Virus record (IMG/VR): IMGVR_UViG_3300034524_000119
Coordinates: 1-21,698 of that record
Direction: 5' to 3' (one strand)
Length of the DNA stretch: 21,698 bases
Origin: a virus
Part shown: positions 115 to 17,087 of the stretch, one piece after another
Layout: each line of letters begins with the position of its first letter
Position numbering within the stretch: the first letter of the stretch is position 1
The notes under the pieces: model-generated
Databases searched by the model: none
Seen by the model: the letters and a program-made list of their open reading frames with translations, nothing else
What the model was told of the DNA's origin: nothing
Made by a program: the position numbers and the translations under genes

Positions 115-143
115 TTGACAACTACCGGTATCCATTGTATTTG
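115..143 (+). promoter_or_regulatory. Possible promoter with internal TACCGGTA palindrome
   Basis: A perfect TTGACA at 115-120 is followed after 17 bp by TATTTG at 138-143, a weak -10. The 8-bp palindrome TACCGGTA lies at 123-130 inside the spacer, where a repressor would block RNA polymerase. It would transcribe the metallopeptidase gene. The weak -10 keeps confidence low. Confidence 0.35.
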
Positions 144-199
144 TAATACCTGAAGCTGACTATCATTATGATGAGTCGGAAGAAAAGAAAATATGGATT

Positions 200-1795
200 A
201 TGGTACGGTTTATAGGAGATCTTGCATGCAATTTGAAAGACTCGGAAATATATGATGTATCTGAGTATAATGGAAAAAACCGTGTGGAAAATCCGTTAGA
301 CGATTCACTAGTTCCGTATATATCTAAAGAGAAATTAGAGGAAGTAGCAACAACATTTTTAAAAAAATATTATCCTGAAGCTTTAAAGATCACATTTCGG
401 GGTCAGCAACCAGTAATGGTAGATTCTAGAGTTCTTACTGAGAGATTGGGATTAACAATAAAAACTCAGCGAATAAAAGAAGACGCTTCAATATTTGGAC
501 AGCTTTATTTTATCGATGCAGAAGTAGATATGTATGATTCTAAAGCGGAAGCAGATTCATTGATTTTTGTTGAAGGAAAGACAATTGTTGTTGACCCAGA
601 AATGTTTTTGTTGCGTAATCTTGGTTCTATAAATAATACTATTATTCACGAATGTGTCCATTGGGTTGAACATCGAAAAGTTTTTGAACTTGAGAAATTA
701 TTCAATTCATCAGCATCTTATATTAGTTGTGAAGTGGTTGGCGGTGCTTCAACAACAATCTCAAAAAAAGCAACAGATTTAATGGAGTATCAAGCTAATC
801 AACTAACACCTAAAATCCAAATGCCAGCAGAGCCATTCCGTGCAAAAGCAAATGAATATATAACTAAATTTATGCGTGAAACTAAAACAAAGCATAAAGT
901 CGATGTAATGGAGCAAGTAATTGCTGCTTTAGAAACTGCATTTGCGGTTTCTAAACAGGCAGCTAAAATTCGCCTTGTTGAATTAGGTTTTGAGGAGGCT
1001 ATTGGAACTTATATATATCTTGATGGTCACTATATAAAACCCCATGGTTTTAGTAAAGGGGCAGTAAAAGTTAATCAGACATTTTCAATAAGTGCACAGG
1101 ATGCAGCTATTGAACGTTTTATAAACCCGGAACTTCGAACATTAACTGAGAATGGCGATTACCTTTTTATTGATAACCATTTCGTATATAATTCACCGCT
1201 TTATGTTGAGTACGATAAAAGCGGAAAGCTTGATTTAACAGGATATGCTCGTTCGCATATGGATGAATGTTGTCTTCTATTTGATATGACCATCACAAGT
1301 AAGGTGAATAATACATATCATACTGCCTGTTTTTTAAACCGAGAGCCAAGTGATATTACGTTTGGAGTTAAGTTTCATAATGGATTTGAAAATGCACCCC
1401 AAGAACGCCAGGTCGCAATGCGAAAGAAACAGCAAGCTAAAGCAATAGAAATCCGTAAACAAATGACGGATGATCCGGAACAATGTATGGAGTTACTTTT
1501 GGATTGGCGAAATATGAATTATACTGATCTGGGACTTGAGATTGAACGAGACCCAAAGACAATAAGCCGAACTGTTAAAGGTTCAACAAAACCAAAGGTT
1601 AAAACTGCAGCACTTATCTGTTTTGGACTTCACTTACCTCCAATAATTAGTGATAAATTAATGGAGGTATTTAACTGTAAACCGAGTCCAATAAATGAAG
1701 AAGAACAGTGGATAAATGAAGCTCTACACCTAAAGTACCCAGAACCTTTATGGGCTATTCAAGAGTATCTTAGTCGTTATGGAGTAGAAATTTAA
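200..1795 (+). CDS. ImmA/IrrE-like metallopeptidase with C-terminal HTH
   Basis: Predicted zinc metallopeptidase of the ImmA/IrrE type, a family whose phage and ICE members cleave or inactivate repressors to trigger induction. Seen directly: an HECVH motif at residues 150-154, and the downstream family signature MEYQANQLTPKIQMP at about 195-209, whose Glu196 is the likely third zinc ligand. Residues of about 430-495 look like an XRE-type helix-turn-helix (YTDLGLEIERDPKTISR). In the classical arrangement a small separate ImmA follows an HTH repressor. Here the peptidase and DNA-binding parts are in one 531-residue chain with the HTH last. The start is uncertain: the frame stays open upstream to about 119 without ATG, GTG or TTG, and the 200 ATG has only a weak GGAAG-type ribosome binding site. 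A terminator and the repressor gene follow on the same strand. Confidence 0.75.
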   Translation: MVRFIGDLACNLKDSEIYDVSEYNGKNRVENPLDDSLVPYISKEKLEEVATTFLKKYYPEALKITFRGQQPVMVDSRVLTERLGLTIKTQRIKEDASIFGQLYFIDAEVDMYDSKAEADSLIFVEGKTIVVDPEMFLLRNLGSINNTIIHECVHWVEHRKVFELEKLFNSSASYISCEVVGGASTTISKKATDLMEYQANQLTPKIQMPAEPFRAKANEYITKFMRETKTKHKVDVMEQVIAALETAFAVSKQAAKIRLVELGFEEAIGTYIYLDGHYIKPHGFSKGAVKVNQTFSISAQDAAIERFINPELRTLTENGDYLFIDNHFVYNSPLYVEYDKSGKLDLTGYARSHMDECCLLFDMTITSKVNNTYHTACFLNREPSDITFGVKFHNGFENAPQERQVAMRKKQQAKAIEIRKQMTDDPEQCMELLLDWRNMNYTDLGLEIERDPKTISRTVKGSTKPKVKTAALICFGLHLPPIISDKLMEVFNCKPSPINEEEQWINEALHLKYPEPLWAIQEYLSRYGVEI

Positions 1796-1810: not shown

Positions 1811-1830
1811 AATGGACATGACGTGTCCGG
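1811..1830. promoter_or_regulatory. 20-bp operator-like site, copy 1
   Basis: AATGGACATGACGTGTCCGG contains the dyad GGACA-N5-TGTCC at 1814-1828. Its reverse complement recurs at 3217-3236 with 18 of 20 bases identical. This copy lies just after the metallopeptidase stop codon and before the terminator. Length and symmetry fit a dimeric repressor operator, but the binding protein is unknown. Confidence 0.5.
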
Positions 1831-1845
1831 AAATATAATAATTTT

Positions 1846-1877
1846 AAGCAGACTTTTTTAATAAAGCCTGCTTTTTT
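1846..1877 (+). terminator. Rho-independent terminator after the metallopeptidase gene
   Basis: AAGCAG-A-CTTT pairs with AAAG-C-CTGCTT (an 11-position stem with one mismatch) around a TTTAAT loop, and a run of T residues follows to 1877. It insulates the repressor promoter from upstream transcription. Confidence 0.8.
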
Positions 1878-1878
1878 A

Positions 1879-1963
1879 GTTCAAATAAAAAGTTTAAATT
1901 CATAAATTTGAACCATTGACATTCTATGGTTCAATATATATAATGTATTTAATAAAATTGAAC
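1879..1963 (+). promoter_or_regulatory. Operator array over the repressor promoter
   Basis: Four alternating half-sites are visible: GTTCAA at 1879-1884, TTGAAC at 1908-1913, GTTCAA at 1929-1934 and TTGAAC at 1958-1963. Each GTTCAA/TTGAAC pair is separated by exactly 23 bp, and the two pairs are offset by exactly 50 bp. The middle two half-sites sit in a perfect 9-bp inverted repeat, TTGAACCAT/ATGGTTCAA (1908-1916 and 1926-1934), covering the -35 box. The layout suggests autoregulation by the downstream XRE protein. Confidence 0.65.
1916..1944 (+). promoter_or_regulatory. Consensus sigma-A promoter of the repressor gene
   Basis: TTGACA (1916-1921), a 17-bp spacer and TATAAT (1939-1944) match the housekeeping consensus perfectly. 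It overlaps the operator array and points at the GTG start at 1976. This excludes the longer reading of the gene that begins at 1916. Confidence 0.85.
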
Positions 1964-1975
1964 GGAGGAATTTCT

Positions 1976-2923
1976 GTGTCAAGGCAATTTGATCAATATA
2001 TGAGCGACAAGTTTGAAATTTATGGTGATCTTTATTCTTTAATTGAGCCAGATAATTTTGATGAGTTAATGGAGGCTTTAAAAGTAAAAGATATTATTCA
2101 AAATGCAATCAATAGTCTAATGCACGATGAAGATTCAAGCAGTTACTGTGAGTTACTACAGATACAAGAGGATTATATTATTGAATATGTGAGTCGTTTG
2201 GGAGAATTTGAAAATTATTATCTCATTCAAAATATTAATTATATAACTAAGAAAAATGATTTGCGTATTGGCGAGTTAGAAAAATTGCTTGGTATTAGTA
2301 CCGGTTATATTTCACGCACAGCTAAGGAAAATTCTTCAAAAAAGATGAGTGTTGATGTTGTGTGGAAAATTGCAAAATTATTTGATGTAGATATAAAAAC
2401 TTTAATTGAAACAGATCTTAGAATCCCAAACACTAATACTGAATTGATTAAAAAGTTTATAGCAAAGATCAATCTGCAGACTCAAGAGAATGTCATTGAA
2501 TGGACCTCTCATGGCGGTATTGTAATGCTACTTGATGAAAGGTACAAATCGATGGGGCTAATTTCGGAGGGTGCATATGAGACTACTATTTATCATCCTG
2601 ATCGTTTAAATCAAGAATTCAAGTGGATTTTAACAGATGACATTGTCGCTTGTGAGAAATTTGAAGGAGATAGAGATTTAGTTATTATTCCATTTATGGC
2701 TGATGGTAGAAAAGACATGAAATTTTATGATTTTTTATTTGTATGGTCTGAAAATAAGAGATACCATTGGGAAAAGGTATTTTATACATCGGACGAGCCA
2801 TATGGAAAATTAACAGAATATGCTTCAATTCTTTATGATAGTATTCAGAGAACCGAGTTTGATGCCCAGATTACTACTGAAGTAAGAAATACGATTACTA
2901 ATTACTTGAAAGGGGGCATTTGA
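1976..2923 (+). CDS. XRE-family phage repressor-like regulator
   Basis: A 315-residue regulator. The GTG start at 1976 is chosen because a GGAGG ribosome binding site lies at 1964-1968 and the promoter occupies the sequence before it. A helix-turn-helix of the Cro/CI (XRE) type lies at about residues 87-146 (LRIGELEKLLGISTGYISR, then the recognition-side helix and LFDVDIKTLIE). The N-terminal 85 residues are acidic and helical, and the C-terminal 170 residues form a domain I do not recognise (Trp, Tyr and Phe rich). It lacks a recognisable LexA/CI-type Ser-Lys autoprotease. Together with the ImmA-like neighbour, this suggests a repressor inactivated by the peptidase rather than by self-cleavage; that is inference. 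It is translationally coupled (TGATG) to the next small gene. Confidence 0.75.
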   Translation: MSRQFDQYMSDKFEIYGDLYSLIEPDNFDELMEALKVKDIIQNAINSLMHDEDSSSYCELLQIQEDYIIEYVSRLGEFENYYLIQNINYITKKNDLRIGELEKLLGISTGYISRTAKENSSKKMSVDVVWKIAKLFDVDIKTLIETDLRIPNTNTELIKKFIAKINLQTQENVIEWTSHGGIVMLLDERYKSMGLISEGAYETTIYHPDRLNQEFKWILTDDIVACEKFEGDRDLVIIPFMADGRKDMKFYDFLFVWSENKRYHWEKVFYTSDEPYGKLTEYASILYDSIQRTEFDAQITTEVRNTITNYLKGGI

Positions 2924-3105
2924 TGATTAAAAAGCCTATCAGAAATCTTCATAGTGATAAACTTACACCACCAAGATTCTGTGATGTGATAATAGATGGA
3001 GATAAAATTTATCTTGAACAGAAAAAAGACAAAAATATTTTTATAAAAATTCCATGGGAAGATGTAGTCTACCAGGTTGAGTGTGCAAAAGCATTCCACG
3101 AATAA
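2923..3105 (+). CDS. 60-aa protein of unknown function, coupled to the repressor
   Basis: The ATG at 2923 overlaps the repressor TGA stop, and GAAAGGGGG at 2908-2916 supplies the ribosome binding site, so the two genes are translationally coupled. The 60-residue product has mixed charge, a beta-rich centre (DVIIDGDKIYLEQ) and a conserved-looking IPWEDVVYQVECAKA tail. No family is recognised. The tight coupling suggests that it works with, or modulates, the repressor. A strong terminator closes the unit. Confidence 0.65.
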   Translation: MIKKPIRNLHSDKLTPPRFCDVIIDGDKIYLEQKKDKNIFIKIPWEDVVYQVECAKAFHE

Positions 3106-3146
3106 ATAGAAACTACCACACCTGCCCCGTATTAAAACGAGGAGCT

Positions 3147-3207
3147 AACCGCTGGAGTTATCTAAAATAGCCTTTATTGGCTGATTAGATAACTCCAGCG
3201 GTTTTTT
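3147..3207 (+). terminator. Strong terminator closing the repressor operon
   Basis: A perfect 17-bp stem (3147-3163 with 3187-3203, core CCGCTGGAGTTATC) encloses a 23-nt loop that itself contains an AGCC/GGCT mini-hairpin. A T run follows. The stem is unusually long for an intrinsic terminator. Confidence 0.85.
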
Positions 3208-3216
3208 GTTTTTTGA

Positions 3217-3236
3217 CCGGACATGGCATGTCCATT
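3217..3236. promoter_or_regulatory. 20-bp operator-like site, copy 2 (inverted)
   Basis: CCGGACATGGCATGTCCATT contains the perfect dyad GGACATG-G-CATGTCC. As the reverse complement it matches the 1811-1830 site at 18 of 20 positions. It lies just downstream of the repressor terminator and upstream of a weak promoter-like TTTTGA-16-TATTAA (3247-3274). It could therefore control the 46-aa gene and what follows. Confidence 0.55.
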
Positions 3237-3294
3237 TTCAAAAATATTTTGATGTTAGGATAAGAGTATATTAAAGAATTAGGAGGTGAAAACA

Positions 3295-3453: not shown

Positions 3454-3622
3454 CCGTTTCAATGTTCACCGCCTGATCAGCGGTGCCCAGAGCGGCGAAA
3501 CGGAAACAATTAAATACAGCCAACCCACTGGGACGGTTGGCCATTAGAAGTGAGGATTCATTCTTATGGCCAATTATTATGGGAAGTCCTGCGTGGATTC
3601 TCACTTCGATTTAAAAATCGAA
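3454..3622 (+). promoter_or_regulatory. Structured RNA leader with competing hairpins
   Basis: Several inverted repeats lie before the sigma-like gene. CCGTTTC/GAAACGG (3454-3460, 3497-3503) encloses CACCGC/GCGGTG (3467-3472, 3480-3485). GCCAACC/GGTTGGC is at 3519-3525 and 3535-3541. A 13-bp stem with one mismatch joins 3537-3549 to 3561-3573. AAGTGAG/CTCACTT is at 3548-3554 and 3600-3606. TTCGATTT/AAATCGAA (3605-3622) ends at the AGGAGG. The second and third stems overlap, as do the third and fourth, so they exclude each other, which is a switch-like arrangement. No known riboswitch class is recognised. Confidence 0.45.
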
Positions 3623-16513: not shown

Positions 16514-16828
16514 TTATAAAAGGCGAAGCCAATCACGACGGGCGTAGAGAATTCTTTCTACATTGACCACTTTTAATAGTTCATCAATGGTATAGAAAGC
16601 AATGTAATTCTTAATCAAAAGTTTTCGATATCCCATTGAAGATAGGCGTTCATCTCTTACAAGTGGATATTTCTCCGGCATCTCGGCTAAACTAAGGAGT
16701 GCTTCTTCAATTGTGTCCATCATTTTTGTAGCAGTCATTGGTGCTGATAATTGTGACGAAATGTACAGAATAATATCGCGGAGGTCATTTTCCGCTGGTT
16801 TAGAAATATCAATTCTATAAGTTGCCAT
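16514..16828 (-). CDS. RelE/ParE-family toxin
   Basis: A 104-residue protein on the minus strand. The ParE/RelE toxin pattern is visible: MATYRIDISKPAENDLRDII, the helical STISSQLSAP-like region after it, YPLVRDERLSSMGYRKLLIK, then NYIAFYTID and RILYARRDW. These match the ParE-type plasmid-stabilisation family, whose members poison gyrase or, in the RelE branch, cleave mRNA. It overlaps the antitoxin gene by 14 bp. It opposes the direction of every other gene here, indicating a separately acquired module. Whether it targets gyrase or ribosomes cannot be told from sequence. Confidence 0.85.
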   Translation of the reverse strand: MATYRIDISKPAENDLRDIILYISSQLSAPMTATKMMDTIEEALLSLAEMPEKYPLVRDERLSSMGYRKLLIKNYIAFYTIDELLKVVNVERILYARRDWLRLL

Positions 16829-17087
16829 CGATTATCTCTTTGCGTAGGTCATTCATTACATTGGCCAGTGGACGTTTTTCTCCGGCTTTGATAGCGGAGC
16901 GTCCTTCATCAAGAGCACGATAGAGTTCAAGCTTACCATTTAATAATTCGTAAGCTTCAATGCTCATTACCGCCAAGTCCCCCTGACCATTTTTGGTGAT
17001 AAAGACTGGCTCTTCATTTTCATGGCAGAATTTAGATATCTCATTGTAATTGTTTCTAAGATCCGTACTGGATTTAATGTTTGGCAT
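16815..17087 (-). CDS. Phd/YefM-family antitoxin
   Basis: A 90-residue protein on the minus strand with AGGAGGAC before the ATG. The Phd/YefM DNA-binding fold shows as SSTDLRNNYNEISKFCHENE, then PVFITKNGQGDLAVMSIEAY; the C-terminal part is acidic/basic helical and would wrap the toxin. It is the promoter-proximal gene, as usual for autoregulated pairs, and its operator is a perfect 11-bp inverted repeat spanning the -10 box. The module could keep the prophage from being lost. Confidence 0.88.
   Translation of the reverse strand: MPNIKSSTDLRNNYNEISKFCHENEEPVFITKNGQGDLAVMSIEAYELLNGKLELYRALDEGRSAIKAGEKRPLANVMNDLRKEIIDGNL

Follow-up and report, generated by a model that had tools for sequence, protein, structure and literature searches.

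Paired dyads at a phage M78-HTH locus as candidate bridged operators of an early promoter

Two 20-bp sites in opposite orientation enclose a unit of about 1.4 kb in a stretch of viral DNA of 21,698 nucleotides (the window), which raises the question of what protein, if any, acts on them and to what end. The sequence AATGGACATGACGTGTCCGG at 1811-1830 and the reverse complement of 3217-3236 agree at 18 of 20 positions, as an earlier note had correctly recorded, with two mismatches between the 20-mers. Each site has as its core a 15-bp dyad, GGACA-N5-TGTCC, and these dyads are called O1 and O2 below (Table 1). No further match to the 20-mers with up to three mismatches was found in the 21.7-kb window (0 expected from 100 shuffles), nor was a third dyad with at most one mismatch in the ten arm bases. 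Comparison with related loci suggests that O1 and O2 are operators of the M78-HTH protein encoded just upstream, that they are bridged, and that they govern the early promoter, be it by activation or by repression; the probability of this reading is put at about 0.75. Elsewhere in the window, at 16514-17087 on the minus strand, two small ORFs resemble by eye a RelE/ParE-type toxin and a Phd/YefM-type antitoxin and are oriented opposite to the genes around them.

Table 1. Positions of the features discussed, in window coordinates
Feature	Position	Strand	Description	Support or occurrence
M78 (IrrE/ImmA-type) peptidase + C-terminal HTH gene	120..1795	+	proposed binder of both operators	PHROG_4031, E 5e-200
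O1	1814..1828	.	candidate operator dyad GGACATGACGTGTCC, 18 bp past the M78-HTH stop (1795)	equivalents in 115/164 loci
Terminator-like hairpin of the M78-HTH gene	1846..1873 (approx.)	+	inside the O1-O2 interval	fold; aligned in cargo-less L012
Cargo slot	1890..3100	+	missing from cargo-less relatives	L012 joins window 1889 to 3101
Consensus promoter of the cargo itself	1916-1944	+		12/12 match
XRE gene	~1976-2923	+	within the cargo slot; protein has an HTH	
Small ORF	2923-3105	+	in the cargo slot, last bases reach the conserved flank	
Long hairpin + T-run	3147..3200 (approx.)	+	3' end of the cargo	aligned in cargo-less L011, L012, L021
O2	3219..3233	.	candidate operator dyad GGACATGGCATGTCC, centre ~-42 of the early promoter	site 2 in 116/164 loci
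Extended -10, TGT-TAGGAT	3253..3261	+	early promoter, 22 nt past O2, without a -35	
DUF2800 RNA motif	3454..3603	+	early operon leader	Rfam RF02960, 75.7 bits

A search with an M78-HTH alignment supplied 160 loci, and 164 usable loci were counted. Because the sampling selected loci for resemblance to the M78-HTH protein, co-occurrence of the dyad with its gene is by design; the informative properties are the position, pairing, covariation, spacing and phase of the sites. Kinship between loci was only partly removed by dereplication. Sites were called with at most two mismatches in the ten arm bases, and O1 was required to lie within -20 to +70 of the M78-HTH gene stop. Both dyads are present in 109 of 164 loci (counts for the single sites are in Table 1) and occupy the same places there, O1 just past the stop and O2 before the early operon. 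Conservation among related prophages, on which the earlier note had made its proposal depend, was checked in this way and found.

The dyad is rarely seen elsewhere. Only 23 near-matches with at most one mismatch lie outside the O1 and O2 places across the 1.9 Mb scanned. The complete phages PV036414 and PV036450 have the layout of the window, with a dyad at both places and exactly two perfect dyads per 50-kb stretch. Seven exact matches to CGGACATGNCATGTCCG were obtained from IMG/VR, two of them M78 loci already in the set; the other five, regarded as chance copies, are without an M78 gene in the stretch searched, without a partner site and without a -10 at the spacing described below. A scan of DNA for exact matches to a stricter motif gave none, and a literature search on the motif found nothing relevant.

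The paired sites also change together with the protein. Loci without GGACA carry other dyads, likewise in pairs and in the O1 and O2 positions: GGACG..CGTCC (L125, L126), CGACT..AGTCG (L078, where the dyad reads CCGACTCGATGAGTCGG, and L145), CTAC..GTAG (L143), CGACA..TGTCG (L069, L146), GTACA..TGTAC (L139) and GGAAG..CTTCC (L167, L168), some of the divergent dyads having been read by hand. A recognition helix of the type x-T/Q/K-I/L/V-x-R is found in all 43 dereplicated GGACA loci and is absent from seven of ten loci with other dyads (Fisher p 8e-7, for a signature chosen after inspection). Partial Mantel tests with rest-of-protein distance removed link half-site distance to the 13 residues of the helix (p 0.0015) and to the HTH domain (p 0.0005); of the blocks of the protein, the HTH-containing one at 431-470 shows the strongest partial correlation. 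In an unbiased six-residue scan the best stretch falls directly behind the recognition helix, with the helix stretches themselves lower, near the 95% null limit. Taken together, the fixed places and the covariation with the DNA-binding helix strongly support, at the level of sequence, O1 and O2 as operators of the upstream-encoded M78-HTH protein, in keeping with the earlier suggestion that both sites serve one regulator.

The protein has the features expected of a peptidase joined to a DNA-binding domain. Its HEXXH motif is invariant (H150-E151-x-x-H154), and Pfam M78 scores slightly below the cut-off for the window ORF and above it for the L004 protein. An AF2 model (pLDDT 83.8) contains a five-helix HTH at 426-490 with the recognition helix at 452-460; the top Foldseek match is IrrE (3dti, E 4.5e-4), the C-terminal part matches the HTH of DdrO, and PADLOC reports a capP match (4.6e-8). 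The frame opens at about 120, after another ORF ends, and the listed ORF starts at ATG 200. Compared with relatives (627 aa in L004), the window protein is about 70-100 residues shorter at its N terminus and is possibly truncated or rearranged. No conserved HTH repressor as a partner turned up among the loci read; here the HTH and M78 belong to a single chain. Three loci, L006-L008, have a split form with a separate HTH gene (128 aa) and an M78 gene (268 aa), and there a different dyad, TGTCAAC..GTTGAC, flanks the split gene pair on both sides. Variable, defence-looking gene sets lie upstream of the M78-HTH gene in L004, L016, L017, L023, L073, L110 and L155, and include by eye McrBC-like, DNA methyltransferase and GmrSD-like genes.

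The unit between the sites is incidental to them. The earlier note had the sites bracket a repressor unit; they do not belong to it, as relatives without that unit retain both sites, and most loci are free of cargo. When cargo-less L012 is aligned to the window, O1 and its terminator fall to the left of the junction, with O2 and the second hairpin to its right. The same note placed both sites outside the terminators; this holds for site 2, which follows the long hairpin, and fails for site 1, which precedes the hairpin of the M78-HTH gene. A very stable hairpin forms in the stretch 3100-3215 (-46.8 kcal/mol, z -9.3); at 3113-3212 and in the equivalents of L011, L012 and L021 its 5' part is conserved.

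The O1-O2 spacing is 77-279 bp without cargo in 87 automatically paired loci and 1183-1956 bp in 32 cargo-loaded loci. L073, from B. xiamenensis, is one of the cargo-less relatives. The loaded loci hold eight unrelated cargo protein families, the XRE type being present in 12, and the main cargo ORF is on the plus strand in all 32; the opposite orientation was not found among them. In one of the two complete phages the gene between the sites is of the DUF6076 type, matching HEPN weakly, and not an XRE gene. The slot of L005, L014 and L096 holds a DUF6076 gene, its product weakly similar to HEPN, which may serve in defence. A protein search of viral contigs found no relatives of the XRE protein. 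Judged by these sequence comparisons, the XRE unit is passenger cargo, one of at least eight interchangeable types that occur between the operators; the slot is one location in which these phages keep additional genes.

The spacing of the sites gives a separate line of evidence. Cargo-less O1-O2 distances cluster at 99-102, 108-112, 119-124, 130-134 and 139-143 bp, and over a tested range of 8-14 bp the best period in these loci is 10.5-10.6 bp (R 0.58). The periodicity has p values of at most 5e-5 with proteins dereplicated below 80, 70 or 60% identity, 1e-4 below 55% and 0.002 below 50%; below 45%, with ten loci, the signal is thin and a 10.5-bp period is not the best (p 0.019). Phasing at 10.5 bp is a prediction of bridged operators and therefore supports a looping reading, which the earlier note had listed among its options. 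The mean phase is 0.53, near a half turn, so that the geometry is not that of simple same-face contact on relaxed DNA. In loaded loci the phase is random (R 0.05), as expected for kilobase loops, a result that is also uninformative.

A further constraint links O2 to the promoter. Among 68 dereplicated loci, 62 have a TANNNT element that starts exactly 22 or 23 nt downstream of O2, against a mean of 4.05 and a maximum of 11 in shuffled sequence, and no comparable -10 spacing was found after O1 in either direction, for which reason O1 was rejected as a promoter site. The best -35 match at the early promoter is no better than in shuffled sequence. A -10 at this distance and no -35 hexamer put the centre of O2 at about -42/-43, an activator-type position. 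Since the variant-dyad loci retain the O2-to-(-10) spacing, that spacing appears to constrain the bound protein and not a sigma-factor sequence. In the subgroup of the window the -10 is of the extended kind, with TGn in 17 of 24 loci that have the 22-nt spacing; an extended -10 can work without an activator, so repression by occlusion is also possible. A conserved leader, AATATCAAATGCCTGATTTGCAATAAGGGCAAAGGATACATATTG, follows O2 in L073, L110 and L074 and is common to several phages; in L073 and L110 it has no Rfam match, and no Rfam family was found for the leaders or the long hairpin of relatives.

Several steps can be proposed for how such a locus would work. M78-HTH dimers would use the C-terminal HTH to recognise the dyads, and contact between the proteins at O1 and those at O2 would bridge the DNA in between. 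The protein bound at O2, in place of a -35, would then activate early transcription in a class II manner. Given that O2 stands at the -35 place, the bound protein probably activates the early promoter, and we favour this sign; repression of that promoter by the M78-HTH protein appears less probable, with the odds against it. The M78 domain would place this activity under the control of a signal, for which DNA damage and single-stranded DNA are candidates. IrrE/PprI and CapP cleave HTH repressors, and ssDNA stimulates this cleavage (PMC10904395); by analogy, the M78 domain here may make the switch responsive to DNA damage. The most complete form of the proposal is tentative: a single-chain peptidase and DNA-binding protein, with fused ImmA/ImmR-type halves, could be the lysis-lysogeny switch of a large group of Bacillota phages, one that activates the early promoter by bridging phased operators and has a cargo slot inside the bridge. 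PHROG 4031 is labelled 'unknown function', yet it occurs in prophages of Bacillus, Clostridium, Ruminococcus, Lactococcus and others, and from the sequence record one can now read a likely binding site and target promoter for it, together with, from natural variation, a partial recognition code relating helix residues to half-sites.

Three other accounts of the sites fare poorly against these data. In the window alone, the XRE protein is an obvious candidate binder, as it is encoded between the sites and has an HTH. Yet this kind of XRE gene fills a minority of loaded slots, the 87 detected short pairs have no cargo at all, and the half-sites track the helix of the M78-HTH protein. With its unit one of eight cargo types and most loci without cargo, the XRE protein is a very improbable binder, and it was rejected because cargo is interchangeable or absent at conserved pairs. 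The inverted arrangement with 18 of 20 matches likewise invites a reading as recombination sites that flip the 1.4-kb unit, an option that the earlier note had also raised. The centres of the paired dyads are identical in just five of 67 loci, however, and the cargo has a single orientation in the loaded loci, for which an inversion device was rejected; this is the least probable of the readings considered. Nor do the flanks show an inverted bias: the earlier note saw related asymmetric flanks in the window, whereas in relatives flank agreement is equal in direct (2.73/6) and inverted (2.90/6) comparison, which indicates that the dyads have no defined orientation. The dyads could alternatively act as RNA hairpins, in processing or as terminator-like elements, and not as protein-binding DNA, given that each folds weakly (about -7 kcal/mol) and that site 1 is in a 3' UTR. 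However, the arms are constant, not compensatory, across proteins down to 30% identity, site 2 is upstream of the -10 and hence outside the transcript to be controlled, and helical phasing is meaningless for RNA. This reading was dropped, and we regard it as very improbable.

The more serious competitor keeps the same operators and the same protein and makes the M78-HTH protein an immunity repressor, which in a lysogen would sit on O2 beside the early promoter, with the O1-O2 bridge strengthening repression until cleavage or inactivation upon DNA damage frees the early genes. The M78-HTH protein is the conserved regulator adjoining the early operon, where L006-L008 have their split HTH and M78 pairs, and in the M78 precedents, IrrE/DdrO and CapP/CapH, the outcome is relief of repression (PMC10904395). 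The extended -10 of the window's subgroup also fits a promoter of this kind. On the other hand, repression does not call for a site held at base-pair precision from the -10, one would expect an early promoter under repression to have a -35, which is absent here, and no operator was found near the 5' end of the M78-HTH gene. An immunity repressor is on balance unlikely, though clearly ahead of the three accounts above.

Bridged M78-HTH operators at an early promoter have partial parallels in known systems. With lac repressor, the classic evidence for looping is that changes of operator spacing over 58-156 bp have effects in vivo that follow helical phase (PMC1762422). Unlike those loops, which were measured in vivo, the phase here is read from natural spacings. 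Lambda CI at PRM contacts RNA polymerase from a site near -42, and OL-OR looping bridges distant operators. In contrast to lambda, no divergent CI/Cro region was seen at the M78-HTH locus, which has one downstream promoter and two operators, phased at 10.5 bp where they lie close together. At the Mu Pm promoter, Mor binds two 5-bp inverted repeats that are centred at -43.5 and replace the -35, with a -10 present (PMC4390567). The early promoter described here resembles Pm in having a short inverted-repeat element in the -35 place, a -10, and a phage protein proposed to act on a phage promoter. It differs in that Mor is a protein of 129 aa and not an M78-HTH protein, the dyad here is 15 bp and centred at about -42/-43, and Pm is a middle promoter, whereas this locus has a second phased operator, O1, and serves early genes. 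With IrrE(PprI)/DdrO, ImmA/ImmR of ICEBs1 and CapP/CapH, the locus shares an M78 fold with HEXXH, an HTH and the character of a mobile-element switch. Those systems divide peptidase and dsDNA-binding regulator between two proteins, whereas here a chain of about 630 aa combines them, and the candidate operators lie downstream of the regulator's own gene.
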